The translations under genes were made by a program, and so were the position numbers. The notes beneath the pieces were generated by a model, which searched no databases, had not been told where the DNA came from, and saw nothing but the letters and a program-made list of their open reading frames with translations. 64,000 nucleotides of DNA from Scatolibacter rhodanostii (GTDB lineage: Bacteria > Bacillota > Clostridia > Oscillospirales > Acutalibacteraceae), in assembly GCF_900197595.1 (NCBI RefSeq), contig NZ_FZLO01000003.1:248001-312000 (forward strand). Reading direction: 5' to 3'. Positions 22,951 to 29,873 of this stretch are shown in pieces (the first letter of the stretch is position 1; each line of letters starts with the position of its first letter).

Positions 22951-24675
22951 TTATTCTGCTTGTGCCTGATGAAGTTTGGCGTAAATACCATTTTGATTCA
23001 TCAGTTCTTCATGCGTACCAAGCTCAGCAATATTAGTGCCGTCAAGCACAACAATTTGATCAGCGTGGCGAATTGTCGATAGGCGATGTGCAATTACAAC
23101 GGTAGTACGCTCCTTGGAAATTTCATCCAGTGCTGCCTGAATTTCTTTTTCTGTTTTGGTATCAAGTGCGGAAGTCGCTTCATCTAGAATGAGAATAGGT
23201 GCATTACGTAAAATAGCTCTGGCAATAGAAATACGTTGTTTTTGTCCTCCGGAAAGTCGAATTCCTCTCTCACCGATAACGGTTTCGTACCCATCTTCCA
23301 TTTCTATGATAAAATCATGTGCATTCGCTGCCTTGGCGGCTTCCAGCACTTCTTCATGAGTAGCACTCTTTAACCCATAAGCAATATTTTCATAAACTGT
23401 GCCATTAAAAAGAAAAGTGTCTTGCAGTACCATCGAAATATTATCGCGAAGACTGGTAAGCGTAACTTCTCGAATGTCTACTCCGTCAATTAAAACAGAG
23501 CCCTCCTGGGGATCATAAAAGCGATTAATTAAGTTTGCTATCGTTGATTTGCCAACACCTGTTGTACCTACTAGAGCCACTGTCTGACCAGGCTTAACCG
23601 TTAAATTCACCTTTTCTAACACAGAGATTTCTTCATTATACGCAAAAGATAGATTTTTGAGTTGGATGGCTCCTTGCACGCGAGAAAGCGTTTTAGGGTT
23701 CTTCGCTTCTTTCACATCAGGAACATCGTCTATTACATCAAAAACACGCTGGCAGCCCGCTCCGGCCTCTCCTAAACGCTCTATTAGGCTTGAGAACGTC
23801 TTGACAGGTCCATAAAACATAGAAAGATACATGATAAATCCGACGATATCAGCAATGGCAACTTGTCCTGTTCCCACTAAATGACCGCCATAGACAACAA
23901 CGACGACTGTGCCGAGAGCTGTAATAAAGGCAAGCAGCGGATATGTTGTTTCAAAGAAAAAGCTGGCTTTTAAATAGGCTAAACTATGTCTAAGCGCTAA
24001 ACCGGCTACTCTCTTTTCTTCATGTTTTTGTTGATTAAAAATTTGAATTTCTTTAATACCTGAAAGATTATCCTGCACTGTGCCAGACAGTTCACCTCGT
24101 ACTCTGGAATTTTCTTTCCATGTTGGTGAAACGTGGCGGCTTTGCCACATAGTAATACCTAGCAAAAAGGGAATGGTGACTAAACTCATGAGTGCCAAGC
24201 GCCAGTTAATTGTGAAGAGCAGACCTCCAACACCAATAAAAGTTAGGATATTCACCACAAAATCAGGAATAACATGAGCAAGCAAAATTTCTGCATCTAG
24301 CGCATCACTCACCACTCTACCTGTTAAATCACCTGTACGGCTTTTGTGAAAATAGCGTAAGCTCATATTTTGCAGTTTGCTGTAAAGTCTAGTACGCAAA
24401 TCTGCTACATAATGCAATGCAGCGTAGTGATTTAAATAGCCGGATGCTGAACTGCCAGCTGCCTGCAAAGCAGTTGTCGCTAACAGGAACATTCCAATTC
24501 GTAATGATTCTGAAGCAAAATTCTGGCTGCCCTCTGTAGCAAGACTGGTTAATTCTCGTAATGCCCAAGGTGTATAAAAACCAGCTACTGTTGACACTAT
24601 CAGGGCGAGAAAGGCAATCATAAGATGCAGCCAATACTTTTTTGCTTCTTTAAAAACACGGAGTGCCGTTTTCAT
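22951..24675 (-). CDS. ABC exporter-type half transporter (permease-ATPase fusion)
   Basis: The protein has 574 residues: six membrane helices (about 15-310) fused to an ATPase domain (about 335-570). Walker A is GTTGVGKST, the signature is LSGGQKQR and Walker B ends ILDEATSALD. It belongs to the MsbA/LmrA-like exporter group and works as a dimer. Its ATG overlaps the stop of the FecE-like gene by 4 bp, and its ribosome site AAGGAGG lies inside that gene, so it is co-translated with the siderophore importer. This context suggests either siderophore export or, as for IrtAB/YbtPQ-type exporter-fold proteins, a role in siderophore-iron uptake. It is the last gene before the terminator at 22809. 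Confidence 0.92.
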   Translation of the reverse strand: MKTALRVFKEAKKYWLHLMIAFLALIVSTVAGFYTPWALRELTSLATEGSQNFASESLRIGMFLLATTALQAAGSSASGYLNHYAALHYVADLRTRLYSKLQNMSLRYFHKSRTGDLTGRVVSDALDAEILLAHVIPDFVVNILTFIGVGGLLFTINWRLALMSLVTIPFLLGITMWQSRHVSPTWKENSRVRGELSGTVQDNLSGIKEIQIFNQQKHEEKRVAGLALRHSLAYLKASFFFETTYPLLAFITALGTVVVVVYGGHLVGTGQVAIADIVGFIMYLSMFYGPVKTFSSLIERLGEAGAGCQRVFDVIDDVPDVKEAKNPKTLSRVQGAIQLKNLSFAYNEEISVLEKVNLTVKPGQTVALVGTTGVGKSTIANLINRFYDPQEGSVLIDGVDIREVTLTSLRDNISMVLQDTFLFNGTVYENIAYGLKSATHEEVLEAAKAANAHDFIIEMEDGYETVIGERGIRLSGGQKQRISIARAILRNAPILILDEATSALDTKTEKEIQAALDEISKERTTVVIAHRLSTIRHADQIVVLDGTNIAELGTHEELMNQNGIYAKLHQAQAE

Positions 24676-25502
24676 ACTGCAATATCCTCCTTCTGCGGAG
24701 GAGACTCTTTACTGCTGCTGTTGACTAAATTATAGGTCAAACAAATAGGACGTCCTGTGCGTGGTTCTAGCACAATTTCAGCGTCAATAGAAAATGTATC
24801 TTTCAATGATTCGGAAGTCATTACTTTTTCCGGACTTCCGTGTGTAACTATCTTTCCATCACGAATGGCTATCATATAATCTGAAAATCTAGCCGCTAAA
24901 TTTAAATCGTGCAAAACCATGACAATCGTCACGTTTTGTTTGCGATTGAGGTCATAAAGCAGTTCTAGAATTTCAAGCTGATGTGCTAAATCAAGATAAG
25001 TAGTCGGTTCGTCTAAGAGAATCAAATCGGTTTGCTGTGCAAGTGCCATAGCAATCCAAACTCTTTGACGTTGTCCGCCAGAAAGGGTATCAACCTCTCT
25101 ATTCTCAAATTCAGTGAGCTTGGTAACAGAAAGTGCCCAATTCACAATCTTCTTGTCTTCAGGTGTCAATTTACCAAATCCCTTTTGATGTGGAAAACGT
25201 CCATAAGCTACCAATTCACTGACGGTCAGACCACTTGGAGCGGTTGGTGTTTGCGGTAAAATAGCCATTTTCTTGGCAATCTCTTTCGTGGAAAGATCTC
25301 GAATATCTTCTCCACTTAAATAGACTAGCCCTGTCTTAGGTTTTAAAATACGGCCAACGGCTTTCAGTACAGTGGATTTACCACAGCCATTTGGGCCAAT
25401 AATAGAGCTTATTTTTCCATGTGGGATATTCATATCCAAAGCTTTTACGATGAGTGCATCATCATAGGCAATATCTAATTTCTCGGTGCTGATACTATTC
25501 AT
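24672..25502 (-). CDS. Siderophore-iron ABC transporter ATPase (FecE/FhuC-like)
   Basis: This 276-residue ATPase has Walker A GPNGCGKST, signature LSGGQRQR, Walker B ILLDEPTTYLD and the HDLNLAARFSDYMIA stretch typical of the FepC/FecE group. It powers the two FecCD permeases encoded upstream in the same direction. Start ATG with AAGGAGG. The 3' end overlaps the exporter-type gene by 4 bp. The gap to the upstream permease is 53 bp. Confidence 0.95.
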   Translation of the reverse strand: MNSISTEKLDIAYDDALIVKALDMNIPHGKISSIIGPNGCGKSTVLKAVGRILKPKTGLVYLSGEDIRDLSTKEIAKKMAILPQTPTAPSGLTVSELVAYGRFPHQKGFGKLTPEDKKIVNWALSVTKLTEFENREVDTLSGGQRQRVWIAMALAQQTDLILLDEPTTYLDLAHQLEILELLYDLNRKQNVTIVMVLHDLNLAARFSDYMIAIRDGKIVTHGSPEKVMTSESLKDTFSIDAEIVLEPRTGRPICLTYNLVNSSSKESPPQKEDIAV

Positions 25503-25555: not shown

Positions 25556-26569
25556 TTAATTCGCCTTTGCTAACAAATACAGGAAATACGGCGTGCTGAG
25601 AACAGTGATGACAATACCTGTCGGAATATCACTGCCAAGACTAATGGTTCGGGTGATGGTATCTGCCAATAGAACTATAATAGAAGCAGCTAAACACGAA
25701 GCCGGCATCAAAAACTTGTGATTAGGTCCCACCAATCTTTTGGCCAAGTGAGGAGCAATCATTCCTACAAAGAAGAAGTTTCCTCCCAGTGCCACACTTC
25801 CGGAAGAAAGCGCCACTGCTGCAATAGAAAGTCCCAGAAATTCCGGTTTAACAGCTACTCCAAGACCGGTTGCCGTTTGGTTACCCAAATGAAGTGTATT
25901 CAGAACTCTTGATTTATAAATTACATAAGCCAATAATATCAATGTCCATGGAGCTAAAATGGCAAGATATTTCCAATCGTCTCCCCACAAACTGCCTGCA
26001 CTCCATCGCTGCATAAAATCCATTTGATTTTGATCCAGCTTCAATGTCAGCAAAGTGGTAGCCGCACTATATCCGCTTGAAAGGGCAACGCCTGTCAAAA
26101 TTAATCCAGTGGGCGAAATATCTCTTCCGCGACGATAGGAAAGGATAAAAATTAACGCTGCTGCCGTCATACCTCCGATAAAAGCAAGCAGTGGCAGCGC
26201 AATGGCAGAAGACATTCCTTTTGAAGCAAATAGCACAACAAAAATTAGCACAAAAAGTCCTGAACCCGAGCTGATTCCCAATGTGCCCGGACTTGCCATA
26301 TCATTTCTCAGCAAGCTTTGCATGATACAACCTGATGCACCCATACCAAAGCCCACAAGTACACCTAAGATAATACGTGGTAAGCGAAATTCAAATACAA
26401 TTAAATTTTGCTTTTCCGTTCCTTTTCCTAAAAGGACATTAAAAACCTCAATAGGCGAAAGATTCATTTTTCCCGAATTCACACTGACAACGGCAATCAC
26501 AATCATAAGCAGAACCATAACTAAGAGAATAGTAAATCCTCTTTTTGCTGTATATCGCTGTTTTCTCAT
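25556..26569 (-). CDS. Siderophore-iron ABC permease, FecCD family (second)
   Basis: The protein has 337 residues with about nine to ten membrane helices. Family marks include FRLPRIILGVLVGFGMGASG, LRNDMASPGTLGISSG and FFVGMIAPHLAKRLVG. The ATG overlaps the stop of the preceding permease gene by 4 bp and has AAAGGAGGG upstream, so the two are made together as the heterodimeric channel. Confidence 0.95.
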   Translation of the reverse strand: MRKQRYTAKRGFTILLVMVLLMIVIAVVSVNSGKMNLSPIEVFNVLLGKGTEKQNLIVFEFRLPRIILGVLVGFGMGASGCIMQSLLRNDMASPGTLGISSGSGLFVLIFVVLFASKGMSSAIALPLLAFIGGMTAAALIFILSYRRGRDISPTGLILTGVALSSGYSAATTLLTLKLDQNQMDFMQRWSAGSLWGDDWKYLAILAPWTLILLAYVIYKSRVLNTLHLGNQTATGLGVAVKPEFLGLSIAAVALSSGSVALGGNFFFVGMIAPHLAKRLVGPNHKFLMPASCLAASIIVLLADTITRTISLGSDIPTGIVITVLSTPYFLYLLAKAN

Positions 26570-27591
26570 TCAAACTCCCTCCTTTGTTTTCTGGCTAAAT
26601 AGAGGAAATAAGGTACACCTACAACAGCAAAGATAACACCAATGGGTGTTTCATAAGGTTTATTAATCAATCTGCCTACCAAATCAGCAGATACTGTTAA
26701 CAACGCACCATAAAGTCCTGAAGCAGGTATGATATACCGATAATCAACGCCCACCATGTAACGGACAATATGAGGAGTAATAAGACCCACAAATCCAACT
26801 GGACCGACAACAACCACCGAAAGACCAGTTAAAATCAGCACAATAAGAGTAGAAGCACCCTTTACAAAACCCGTTTTTAAACCAAGCCCTGTAGCAACAT
26901 CTTCTCCCAAACTCATCACCGTAACAGACGGCGAAAGTACGACGGCAGCCAGCACACCAACAGCAAAAAAGGGCGACACCAGAGCAAGTTCATTCCAGCT
27001 TGCACCGGCAGTTCCTCCTGCTGTCCAATAAGCGAGGGCTTGACCCAGGTGATATTTAATGGAGAGATATTGACTGAATGCACCAAATAACGTTGAAATC
27101 GACATACCGGCCAGCACCAACCGCTGCGGCGTCATGCCACGCTTGCCAAGTGAGGCAATAAAATAAGTCATTCCTGTTGTAACAGCCGCTCCCAAACAAG
27201 CAAACAGCATGGTTTGTCCATAGGTTCGGCTTGGTAAAAAAGCCATTGCCAAGGCTATGGCAAATCCAGAACCGCTGCTAATTCCCATTAAGCCTGAATC
27301 AGCCAAGGGGTTCCTCGTTGTTCCTTGCATTAAAGCACCACAAATAGCAAGGCTGCAACCTACAATAAGGTCTGCCACTGTTCGTGGAAAGCGCAGGGTC
27401 TGAATAATTTGGTGTTCTGTCTGATTGGGATCAAAGCGAAAAACCGCCTCCCAAGCTGTAGACAGCCGCATGTCGGCCGCCCCGAAACTAATCGAAGCAG
27501 CCGACACCAACACTAACAATCCAGCCCCCACCAGCATATACAAAGTGAAGCGTGCCGCTCCTTTTCTTTTGGCCTTTGGGGTCTTTTGCAT
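26566..27591 (-). CDS. Siderophore-iron ABC permease, FecCD family (first)
   Basis: The protein has 341 residues from the ATG at 27591, preceded by AAAGGAAG; an in-frame ATG 14 codons upstream would place that site inside the coding region and is less likely. Family marks are TLRFPRTVADLIVGCSLAICGAL, TRNPLADSGLMGISSGSGF and GFVGLITPHIVRYMVG. It is the first gene of the importer operon and has its own promoter at 27706-27734 with a start-site element shared with the AraC-lipoprotein gene upstream. Confidence 0.94.
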   Translation of the reverse strand: MQKTPKAKRKGAARFTLYMLVGAGLLVLVSAASISFGAADMRLSTAWEAVFRFDPNQTEHQIIQTLRFPRTVADLIVGCSLAICGALMQGTTRNPLADSGLMGISSGSGFAIALAMAFLPSRTYGQTMLFACLGAAVTTGMTYFIASLGKRGMTPQRLVLAGMSISTLFGAFSQYLSIKYHLGQALAYWTAGGTAGASWNELALVSPFFAVGVLAAVVLSPSVTVMSLGEDVATGLGLKTGFVKGASTLIVLILTGLSVVVVGPVGFVGLITPHIVRYMVGVDYRYIIPASGLYGALLTVSADLVGRLINKPYETPIGVIFAVVGVPYFLYLARKQRREFE

Positions 27592-27689
27592 TTCTTTCTT
27601 CCTTTCGGGTTTTGTTTCTTTTCTTTGCAGCATTTTGTAAAAAGCAGATAAATTGACAGAATTCGCTGTCTTCCTATAGTTTGGTCAGA

Positions 27690-27734
27690 CTAACTCAATT
27701 CTCCCATTATACAATAAGATATTCCCGTTTCCAA
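27690..27734 (-). promoter_or_regulatory. Promoter and candidate operator of the iron importer operon
   Basis: On the minus strand TTGGAA (27729-27734) and TATAAT (27706-27711) are 17 bases apart. Seven bases after the -10 lies TTGAGTTAG (27690-27698), at the expected transcription start. The same nine bases occur eight bases after the -10 of the AraC-lipoprotein gene, so this is a likely shared binding site. Confidence 0.7.
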
Positions 27735-27820: not shown

Positions 27821-29782
27821 TTATTTGGCTGCGCTTAATAATGATTCTGTTATGTAATTAAGCTGTGCCGTAGCTGAAAGAATATCCGGATAATAACTTA
27901 ACCCAAATTCAATTTCAATCACACGGTTGTTTATGACAGCAGGGAGCGAATTCCAAATAGCATCTTCAGATAAATCAGCCATACCCTCATAGGTATTACG
28001 AATAATAAAATCACCGCTATATTGTGCCAGCACCTCAAATGATACTTGTTCTCCACCAGAATCTTTATCAATAATATTGGTTTTTACACCTTCCGGTGCT
28101 GCTATTCCTAACTCTTTATAGACGATAGAACCTGTGCCATATTGGTTGCCCTTAACAGACATTTTAGCATCTGCTCCGCCTTCAAAGACAGATATGGTAT
28201 ACTGATCAAAGCCTGCTTGCAGCAGCTTGGTCTTTGCTTCTTCTAAACCACTGGCATAGTCACTCAGCAGCTTGGCGGCCTCTTCTTGTCTATTTAAAAC
28301 ATCGCCCATAAAAGTGATTCTTTCACTTTGCGTCATAGTATCATAAGGAATCAAAATTGTGGGTGCTATTTTATTATATTTCTCAACATTCTCGTCGCCA
28401 ATTACAAGAATCAAATCTGGATCAAGCTTCATGACGCTTTCTTCTTCCCACTCGGGAAACCAGCCTAAACTGACCGAATCAGCCACTAAATCAGAGAATG
28501 CCGCGCCGTCATATACATCTGAAACGCCTACCGGTGTAATGCCAAGAGCCACTACATCACCCATTAGATATTGTACCACAACGCGCTGCGGATTGACGGG
28601 CACTTCAACCTCTCCTGTGGAGGTGCTCACAACTCTTGTTCCTGTTTGTTCTATGTCACTCTCGGTTTTTTCGGAAACTTGACTGCTTACCGACGAGGAT
28701 GGCTGACTCGTTGCCTCTGATGTATTTGTAGCTGGTGCGCAAGCTGAAAGTAATAGCATAAAAGCCATTGCCGCCGCCATTATTGTCTTGCTTTTGAAAT
28801 TTTTTAACATGAAGTTTGCTCCTTCTCCTTTGAGTTTGTCAATTCTAACTTGACTTTTCTCATTATAAGGGAAGCTTGGGAGCGTATCCATGATAAAATC
28901 GCTTAACTGATTTGGTGTTTTCGCTCTATAATTTTTAGGTGAAAGCCCAAAATTTTTCATGAACACCTTGCTAAAATTAAATTCATCAGAAAAACCACAA
29001 GCAGCTGCTACAGAACGAATTGAAAAATCTGTGTTTACCAACAATTTTTTTGCCTGCAATAGCCTTACATTCACTAAATACCCTTGCGGGCTTTCTCTAA
29101 ATTGCTCTTTAAAGTTTCTGCGTAAATGGCTGTCACTGATATTTAAAGAGGCCGCTAATGTATGTATTGATAAAGCCTCATCATAGTGTTCTTCCATATA
29201 ACGCTTGATGATGGCCGGTAAGTTCGGCTGCATTGTCTTGAATTTTCCTCTCTCAAGCTCTTTATGCACCTCATAAATGAATTGATAGAATGAGGATTTG
29301 GCATAAAATAACTCTAATGGCAGAGGATGTTTCCAAGCCTCATACATTTTTCGCATATGCTCAGCAAAAAACAAGGGATTTTCAGGGATAAACCCATACG
29401 GCTGTTGAAAAGGACTTATTAGCTCATGATGTTGCACATATTTTTTATGATAGGATAAAGTGTTTTTTCTATCATAAAAAATCATGTAATATTCAAGCCA
29501 ATCTTTGCTAGGAAGAATGGATAGCTCTGCTCCTTTTTCCGCATGGAAAAGTCCAAATCTTTCTAACTGATAAGAATGATGATTGACTATCACTTCTCCC
29601 GATATTCCACTTGTATAAAGAAACATATTAGCAGGCAAGCGATAGCGAGACAGGCTTTCTTTAGAAAAAATTAGATTATGGCGGATGTCAATCAGAGACA
29701 CAGAAGCAAGATTCCATTGCTTGATTGAATTAACAATATCTTCTTTGGAAAAGAACGTGTCTATTCCACGACTCGTATTCAT
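27821..29782 (-). CDS. AraC regulator joined in frame to a siderophore-binding lipoprotein (dual-start gene)
   Basis: One uninterrupted 653-codon frame encodes two proteins' worth of sequence. Residues 1-324 are an AraC regulator: an N-terminal cupin-like sensing part, then two helix-turn-helix motifs (about 205-300, with DSHLRRNFKEQF and AACGFSDEFNFSKVF). At residue 325 (base 28810) an internal ATG with AAGGAG eight bases upstream starts a lipoprotein signal peptide ending LLLSAC (Cys348). A class III (FecB/FepB-like) siderophore-binding fold follows (about 390-650). No stop separates the parts. The cell could make a free lipoprotein from the internal start, and possibly a full-length, membrane-spanning regulator. 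B. subtilis Btr joins AraC and a binding-protein fold, but to my knowledge without an export signal between. It is upstream of the FecCD-FecE operon on the same strand. Confidence 0.9.
   Translation of the reverse strand: MNTSRGIDTFFSKEDIVNSIKQWNLASVSLIDIRHNLIFSKESLSRYRLPANMFLYTSGISGEVIVNHHSYQLERFGLFHAEKGAELSILPSKDWLEYYMIFYDRKNTLSYHKKYVQHHELISPFQQPYGFIPENPLFFAEHMRKMYEAWKHPLPLELFYAKSSFYQFIYEVHKELERGKFKTMQPNLPAIIKRYMEEHYDEALSIHTLAASLNISDSHLRRNFKEQFRESPQGYLVNVRLLQAKKLLVNTDFSIRSVAAACGFSDEFNFSKVFMKNFGLSPKNYRAKTPNQLSDFIMDTLPSFPYNEKSQVRIDKLKGEGANFMLKNFKSKTIMAAAMAFMLLLSACAPATNTSEATSQPSSSVSSQVSEKTESDIEQTGTRVVSTSTGEVEVPVNPQRVVVQYLMGDVVALGITPVGVSDVYDGAAFSDLVADSVSLGWFPEWEEESVMKLDPDLILVIGDENVEKYNKIAPTILIPYDTMTQSERITFMGDVLNRQEEAAKLLSDYASGLEEAKTKLLQAGFDQYTISVFEGGADAKMSVKGNQYGTGSIVYKELGIAAPEGVKTNIIDKDSGGEQVSFEVLAQYSGDFIIRNTYEGMADLSEDAIWNSLPAVINNRVIEIEFGLSYYPDILSATAQLNYITESLLSAAK
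28811..28831 (-). promoter_or_regulatory. Internal ribosome binding site for the siderophore-binding lipoprotein
   Basis: Inside the AraC-lipoprotein frame, AAAGGAGAAGGAG (minus strand) ends eight bases before the ATG at 28810. The following residues are a complete lipoprotein signal peptide, so this site decides an independent internal start. Confidence 0.75.
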
Positions 29783-29806
29783 ACTTTGGCAGACCTTTCA
29801 AAAAAT

Positions 29807-29873
29807 CCTAGCTTGAGTTAGAAAATGCTAACTCAAGCTAGGATAGTATAGCACAATAATAGCCTTTTGTACA
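29807..29873 (-). promoter_or_regulatory. Promoter and palindromic start-site element of the AraC-lipoprotein gene
   Basis: On the minus strand TGTACA (29868-29873) and TATACT (29845-29850) are 17 bases apart. A perfect 15-bp inverted repeat (arms 29828-29842 and 29807-29821, six-base loop) begins two bases after the -10 and holds TTGAGTTAG in both orientations. A run of six T follows it, so it can act as operator, as RNA hairpin/attenuator, or both. The translation start is about 25 bases further on. Confidence 0.7.

Follow-up and report, generated by a model that had tools for sequence, protein, structure and literature searches.

A siderophore-binding lipoprotein gene nested in frame within an AraC-family regulator gene may give one locus two products

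What does a bacterium make from a gene in which an AraC-family regulator runs, without a stop codon, into a siderophore-binding protein that carries a lipoprotein signal of its own? The question is raised by a minus-strand frame in a 64,000-nucleotide stretch of the Scatolibacter rhodanostii genome (contig NZ_FZLO01000003.1, positions 248,001 to 312,000; the window), whose features are collected in the table below. The reading argued here, to which we give a probability of about 0.7 on comparison of sequences, is that one gene would yield both a free uptake lipoprotein and a sensor-regulator of the Btr kind, in which AraC and substrate-binding protein (SBP) domains share one chain. Two conclusions underlie it. 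The linker between the domains seems to double as an internal promoter with its own predicted elements, which is well supported; and the full-length frame appears, on statistics given below, to be kept open by selection even though the linker is mainly a promoter.

The internal ATG (28810-28808, minus strand) lies in the frame of the fusion, and a product begun there would have what a siderophore-binding lipoprotein has: a Peripla_BP_2 domain (residues 408-624 of the 653-residue window protein, 3e-19) with the corresponding fold, and a signal with a lipobox at its own start. A structure model of the whole protein (mean predicted local distance difference test score, pLDDT, 73.8; predicted template modelling score 0.45) gives the regulator part as a beta-barrel plus helix-turn-helix (HTH) and a confident binding domain, whose closest solved structures are FhuD2-type siderophore binders. 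Residues 291-380 are modelled at low confidence (pLDDT <50), with a helix at 320-346.

The gene belongs to a family. The source genome holds six full-length fusion copies including the window gene, as well as L007, with an N-terminal frameshift, and a related stand-alone SBP, L008; copies L002 to L006 are 41-46% identical to the window gene and contain no stops. A contig scan with one protein as query returned nothing, and an alignment-based search then gave 14 loci in named genomes, among them Konateibacter massiliensis, Clostridium minihomine, Lacrimispora xylanisolvens, [Clostridium] aerotolerans and a metagenome-assembled genome with two copies. After removal of duplicates (same last 200 residues) and of L075, which is cut by a contig end, 22 distinct frames were analysed; four more (L118, L131, L135 and L138) were held out as a check, making 26 distinct copies overall. 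Alignment A2 holds 19 of the 22 (all except L071, L077 and L007), with two rows one codon late and L072 carrying a 5' extension. The internal methionine, the lipobox cysteine and, by eye, the lysine or arginine residues and the hydrophobic region (h-region) of the signal occur in every one of the 22.

The linker itself looks less like protein than like a promoter (P2, as against P1 upstream of the frame and P3 before the permease genes). When the 22 linkers are aligned on the Tyr-Asn pair, TATAAT and GTTAG each recur in 21 and AAGG(A/G)G in all, over a length of 126 nt in 20 copies and 123 nt in two. Between the -10 and the Shine-Dalgarno sequence the three codon positions vary equally (0.24, 0.28 and 0.27); the AraC and SBP parts vary mainly at the third. 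Where residues are equal, residues 311-320 use the identical codon at a rate of 0.87 against 0.37 expected. This excess is 0.20-0.50 across residues 281-330, and elsewhere at most 0.22 (residues 21-30 and 211-220) and mostly below 0.1.

A second signature comes from the permease operon. The same 49-nt element that ends in the -35-like hexamer of the linker precedes the -35 of the noncoding permease-operon promoter in the window, L064 and L065, and a matrix was built from those three noncoding promoters only. Scanned with it, the linker is the best place in 21 of 22 open reading frames, always at the identical offset, and in those 21 it also outscores the 260 nt 5' of the frame (a stretch that is intragenic in L007). 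On the minus strand of the window the linker ranks second among the matches of the matrix with 25.2 bits, above the following one at 14.2 and the best plus-strand one at 16.1. When the element is sought in the source genome as a strict pattern with up to three mismatches, exact occurrences are confined to the L003 linker and the permease promoter, so that the remaining linkers have diverged from it; among the sites listed there is one further three-mismatch site per strand (control 1 and 0). The shared element is most simply read as an activator site, probably for the AraC part. Such an element was looked for at P1 and not found there.

If the linker is a promoter, why should it contain no stops? 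The frame from the HTH to the lipobox is open in all 26 distinct copies (22 analysed and four held out). Shuffling the alignment columns of the linkers gives 11.3 +- 2.5 stops against none observed in the 22, and 0 of 5000 shuffles reached zero; simulations along two trees that keep the bases of each column give 12.2 stops (0 of 600 at zero) and 8.5 (2 of 600). Chance absence of stops, or an assembly error, can therefore be rejected, and the 26 open copies likewise exclude the sequencing error at the junction that the initial annotation of this stretch had considered.

The iron box inside the linker tells a similar story. In its usual phase a perfect right half would spell TAA; 23 of the 26 copies, located by script, have the box in that phase, and in them the left half has 0-1 mismatches and the right half 1-2. 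The box of L007, misplaced by the script, shows the same pattern by eye; that of L073 is degenerate. L138 has its box in a different phase, where TAG would come from the left half, and in this copy it is the left half that is imperfect and the right that is perfect. Stops are far rarer than constraint at the DNA level predicts and the half that would spell one is imperfect, which suggests that internal gene and full-length frame are both selected. A simpler version of the argument, that selection on the frame follows from a T never standing at the stop-making position, is weakened. By eye that T is absent from all 22 internal boxes and present in all 26 P1 boxes, and it is present in 13 of 18 noncoding boxes, a set that includes several orthologs and leaves out L121. 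Several noncoding boxes lack it too, so the missing T alone proves nothing, and the shuffles and simulations carry the argument.

Are there close relatives with a stop between the two parts? Searched with the AraC half alone, 397 genomes of the family of genome G754 (up to 6 candidates scored per genome) gave eight matches at E <= 1e-30 in three genomes; seven lie in frames of 656-679 aa, and the eighth, L140, in a 559-aa fusion of the cytosolic type. This check, named by the initial annotation itself, came out in its favour. Where stops were seen between adjacent AraC and SBP genes, the genes were distant relatives (L082, L090, the second set of L073, and C12:124375-125846 of the source genome), and the AraC parts of the first three score 83-93 bits, compared with about 1000 for a whole fusion. 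In G754's Lacrimispora-like genus the profile match of some stand-alone SBP genes begins at about residue 295-318, and this upstream part is interrupted by stops, as would be expected where a similar promoter is noncoding.

These results bear out most of what the initial annotation had claimed: the absence of a stop between the AraC domain and the lipoprotein signal, the Shine-Dalgarno sequence (28824-28819) eight bases before the internal ATG, and Cys348 are as it described, and the two products that it proposed now have stronger sequence support, in conserved promoter elements, an iron box and a frame open beyond chance. Its observation was sound and incomplete: the internal promoter went unnoticed, as did the iron boxes, the paralogs and the domain swapping described below.

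Several observations weigh against the two-product reading. The copies are kin, so that their counts are not independent, which the simulations correct only in part. Residues 288-304 of the linker show no amino-acid constraint beyond openness. The noncoding boxes without the T are those of the permease promoters of the window and L065, of the repressor's own gene, and of L111 and L122, and they include those preceding two free SBP genes. The internal -35 is weak: the hexamer 17 bases 5' of TATAAT starts with TTGG in 9 of 22 copies and is weaker elsewhere. In L005 the linker is not the best element match within its own frame, and in L002 the gap from Shine-Dalgarno sequence to ATG is, by eye, 11 bases instead of eight. 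The iron box pattern with one mismatch is not enriched in the source genome (43 sites, 49 for the reversed control). Finally, L007 keeps its nested gene despite a frameshifted AraC part, so the nested product can stand alone.

L007 and L012 (source genome, C12:147632-149426) mark one copy, whose AraC part is frameshifted near residue 90; its linker promoter and its SBP frame are intact. The L007 frameshift may reflect decay of the regulator only, or an assembly error.

Who would control the promoters? The palindrome AGTTAGN6CTAACT, with 0-2 mismatches, stands upstream of all 22 copies, shortly 3' of a -10-like hexamer in 19 of 21 read by eye and about 105 nt 5' of the ATG in L072 and L077. The window has the box at three places: P1, the linker and before the permease genes. 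Exact GTTAGN6CTAAC occurs at 13 sites in the source genome (4 for the reversed control), two of them inside coding sequence. Box sites precede feoAB, a superoxide dismutase-ferritin pair, a DUF3793-flavodoxin pair, a ZnuA-type gene, another SBP gene with neighbours of ATP-binding cassette (ABC) type by eye, and an enolase gene; the gene for a short DtxR-type repressor has its own box about 76 nt upstream. A DtxR-type regulon is marked by a palindromic box upstream of its iron genes and of the gene for its repressor, and that pattern is seen here. Since the source genome also has three Fur-family genes, any of which could bind the box instead, the DtxR-type protein is only the probable binder.

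Three details of these sites stand apart. The exact box immediately 5' of the enolase gene (L059:5207-5254) is unexpected for an iron regulon. At L052:3778-4701 the DUF3793 gene sits between the iron box and the flavodoxin gene. The P1 box lies within a 17-pair hairpin followed by a T run (29805-29844, minus strand), which could act as a terminator for the upstream gene or as an attenuator of P1.

Put together, the two-product reading would run as follows. In iron-poor cells the single gene would yield two proteins. From P1, under its iron box, translation of the whole frame would give a regulator with its AraC part and a siderophore-binding domain in one chain; from P2 within the coding linker, with its own Shine-Dalgarno sequence and ATG, only the C-terminal part would be made, as an exported lipoprotein feeding the permease. 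The short DtxR-type repressor probably shuts P1, P2 and P3 when iron is plentiful, and the AraC part probably binds the element common to P2 and P3. With siderophore at the fused binding domain, AraC would probably switch on receptor and permease, following the logic of Btr. Orphan copies, dispersed over the genome and each bringing a binding domain of its own, probably use a single permease in common. The full-length chain would either sit in the membrane with the binding domain outside, or be cytosolic like Btr.

Which of the two is it? The cytosolic version may apply, though it is less likely than not. In it the full-length protein would sense siderophore that has been taken up, and export would be confined to the form begun at the internal ATG, so that one binding domain would serve two compartments. 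Its domain order is that of Btr, the strength of the signal is that of an ordinary lipoprotein, and L140, of the same clade, is such a protein and adjoins a separate upstream SBP gene with a lipoprotein signal. The AraC part of L140 is 27-31% identical and its SBP is closest to those of the window and L064 (41-43%); its HTH match ends at residue 285 and its SBP match starts at 312, with no signal between. The gap from HTH_18 to Peripla_BP_2 is 120 residues in the window protein and 5, 60 and 26 in L129, L130 (whose Peripla_BP_2 match begins at profile position 50) and L140. The hydropathy peak of L140 (2.18) falls inside the SBP fold, so that Pfam spacing sets L140 apart and hydropathy does not. 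Against the cytosolic version, a signal within the full-length chain could still be recognised. The wider family seems to have two solutions, a cytosolic sensor with a separate receptor, or one gene able to make both, which favours a functional AraC-SBP link in the full-length chain. By joining the same kinds of domain beside a free SBP gene, L140 suggests that AraC and SBP belong together functionally.

The transmembrane version, the one-protein iron sensor of the initial annotation, uses the signal as an anchor, with AraC inside and SBP outside, so that external siderophore would alter AraC much as in CadC or ToxR. It may apply, although its prospects are somewhat doubtful. The signal segment averages 1.8-2.6 in hydropathy over 15 residues in all 22 copies, with flanking lysine or arginine in all 22 by eye, and has no counterpart at the junction after the HTH of two Btr-like comparators (1.2 and 1.06). 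The modelled linker is disordered around it, and AraC, linker, signal and tether appear to move as a unit while the binding domain swaps. A segment that might serve as the single transmembrane segment of a ToxR/CadC-type regulator is present, at the strength of an ordinary lipoprotein signal. A stronger anchor was sought and not found: the h-regions of the 22 fusions average 15.0 residues and, over 15 residues, a hydropathy of 2.26; the 37 stand-alone SBPs compared, whose lipoboxes were picked by pattern with at least one misparsed, average 15.4 and 2.36 (rank test p 0.05 on each measure). The comparison, in which the fusion's h-region is no longer and slightly less hydrophobic, lends no support to a strengthened membrane anchor. 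L140 is joined without a signal and is cytosolic in type, and signal peptidase II, which cleaves at the lipobox cysteine, would separate the two halves. The interpretation of the initial annotation thus stands for two products and likeness to Btr, and its transmembrane topology is not established.

In 10 of the 22 fusions the tether has, about 15 residues after the lipobox cysteine, a motif resembling SxVSSQ; by the same pattern, which was derived from the fusions themselves, none of the 37 stand-alone proteins has it. The motif might conceivably be a protease site.

Improbable, by comparison, is a polyprotein, inserted and cut at the lipobox into a lipoprotein and a membrane-tethered AraC that intramembrane proteolysis would free; the lipobox cysteine in 22 of 22 copies fits it, yet there is no sign of the required insertion step, and the internal start would already supply the lipoprotein. 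Least probable of all is that these are two ordinary neighbour genes, joined by a spacer that is stop-free by chance and read through into a non-functional fusion, for although the linker evolves like a promoter and not like protein, and distant relatives have AraC and SBP as separate adjacent genes, all 26 copies are open where 8.5-12 stops would be expected in 22, linker length keeps to 126 or 123 nt, and the box changes phase in L138 with its imperfect half.

Trees built from the two halves, AraC and SBP, disagree at strongly supported groupings: for example, L001 groups with L064_3958 (100) in the SBP tree and L064_3958 with L069 (100) in the AraC tree. Mean identity is 37% between SBP halves and 56% between AraC halves, the two correlate weakly (0.30), and in four of 12 pairs examined the SBP halves are the more alike. 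In the clearest pairs the level of identity shifts somewhere in the stretch from residue 349 to 395, immediately past the signal peptide. From the conflict and the shift, binding domains seem to have been exchanged between paralogs while AraC, linker, signal and part of the tether stay together. A fuller picture, of a cassette family in which AraC is paired with a lipoprotein ligand domain, the full-length form is a transmembrane sensor, the linker promoter supplies the free receptor, domains are swapped at the seam of signal and tether, and one permease is shared, is unlikely to hold in all its parts.

In samples of whole genomes the fusion was found in two of 150 genomes of the same family (the source genome counted), in one of 394 of the order (the source genome) and, at full length, in two of 391 of the class (the source genome and G754), or 11 of 391 when SBP-only or split matches count. 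In G754's Lacrimispora-like genus, six of 25 genomes have it at full length, with 13 genes and no stops in any; most of these 13 matches are the same as, or near-identical to, counted copies and were not added. The large samples scored few candidates per genome (three in order and class, six in the 397-genome family), so that the counts are lower bounds. Two oddities belong here. In Clostridium minihomine a third, broken AraC fragment (L067:8001-8318) follows two tandem fusion genes; and at L132 (G916:C1:4970500-4976500) each of two SBP matches carries a frame open over 630 codons, which may encode a double binding protein.

The window, L064 and L065 copies adjoin FecCD, ATPase and exporter genes; the exporter-like gene closes the core siderophore locus in all three (cut by the contig end in L064). 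At the other loci examined, over some 12-19 kb, no close relative of these permease genes was found near the fusion; L073 has a different AraC-SBP-permease set nearby.

Table. Minus-strand features of the AraC-SBP locus and its permease genes, numbered by position in the window
Feature	Position	Strand	Basis or remark
AraC-SBP full-length fusion frame	27821..29782	-	ATG-initiated, 653 aa + stop, uninterrupted
AraC helix-turn-helix, residues 209-287	28922..29158	-	HTH_18 match 3e-22; part of structure model
Siderophore-binding domain, residues 382-653	27824..28639	-	nearest structure to model FhuD2 4b8y, E 1e-19
Nested gene, predicted free siderophore-binding lipoprotein, 329 aa + stop	27821..28810	-	internal Met +-1 codon in 22/22
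Internal Shine-Dalgarno AAGGAG	28819..28824	-	8 bases from ATG; AAGG(A/G)G in 22/22 copies
Lipobox Cys348 (LLSAC)	28739..28741	-	Cys in 22/22 copies
Candidate activator element, 49 nt, in coding linker; 3' end is -35-like TGGATA (28885-28890)	28885..28933	-	permease-promoter matrix match
Predicted internal (P2) -10 TATAAT, in-frame Tyr-Asn	28862..28867	-	TATAAT in 21/22 copies, TCTAAT in 1
Internal iron box AGTTAGAATTGACAAACT	28833..28850	-	right half without the T that would give a TAA stop
Predicted P1 -10 TATACT, TG-extended	29845..29850	-	promoter reading
P1 iron box AGTTAGCATTTTCTAACT	29816..29833	-	11 bases 3' of P1 -10
49-nt element in noncoding permease promoter; 3' end is -35 TTGGAA	27729..27777	-	one of three matrix-building promoters
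Predicted permease promoter (P3) -10 TATAAT	27706..27711	-	promoter reading
Permease-promoter iron box AGTTAGTCTGACCAAACT	27678..27695	-	box pattern
First FecCD permease gene	26566..27633	-	PF01032 4e-91; order kept in L064, L065
Second FecCD permease gene	25556..26569	-	PF01032 2e-87
ABC ATPase gene	24672..25502	-	domain match and gene order
ABC exporter-like gene, 574 aa, ABC_membrane + ABC_tran; end of core locus	22951..24675	-	domain match

What would such a gene mean? Its linker would be both protein-coding and a regulated promoter, under opposing constraints base by base, with the iron box bent where a stop would arise. Were both products real, one binding domain would serve as uptake receptor and as regulator input with no separate sensor needed, and receptor specificity and gene control would change together whenever the domain is swapped. 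The family would connect cytosolic sensors of the Btr type with exported receptors, and offers a testable system for the number of foreign siderophores that one bacterium senses and uses via one permease.

As for precedent, the AraC-SBP fusion as such is known already: in Table 1 of PMC13293324, HTH_18 is the partner in 98.7% of 229 multidomain Peripla_BP_2 genes. A nested, regulated receptor gene was not found described in the literature searched, which misses most subscription papers.

Among known systems the closest is Btr (YbbB) of Bacillus subtilis, which shares an AraC HTH followed by Peripla_BP_2 in one chain and a neighbouring FecCD siderophore permease, and which reportedly activates the siderophore permease operon on binding ferric bacillibactin; for a like role here, the DNA element common to linker and permease promoter is no more than a lead. 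The comparison made by the initial annotation is apt in that Btr (NF049932) is the best NCBIfam match, although three members reach only 76.3, 91.9 and 80.2 bits of the 900 required; the best-matching stretch lies in the AraC half, with a second stretch in one of the three. By that threshold, as by its layout, the fusion is not Btr. Two Btr-like genes on Niallia and Paenibacillus plasmids have HTH_18 and then Peripla_BP_2, followed by free SBP-like and permease-like frames, of which the Niallia SBP is confirmed by a domain match and the rest are read by eye. In Btr the binding domain is joined directly, with no signal between; here, in contrast, the two domains are separated by promoter elements, a Shine-Dalgarno sequence, an ATG and a lipoprotein signal, which would allow the binding domain to serve as an exported receptor as well.

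CadC and ToxR are membrane-integrated one-component regulators, in which a single hydrophobic segment joins the DNA-binding domain and the sensor domain of the same chain. The fusion would resemble them if its signal inserts; it differs in having AraC in place of a winged helix, and a lipoprotein signal with a lipobox as its segment. Siderophore-binding lipoproteins of the FhuD2/HtsA type share fold and family with the C-terminal half but are stand-alone genes, whereas the binding domain here is nested in frame within a regulator gene. In genes with an in-frame internal start, finally, translation begun at that start gives the C-terminal portion as a shorter product; the unit nested here differs from them in having regulated promoter elements of its own, and its two products may differ in compartment.

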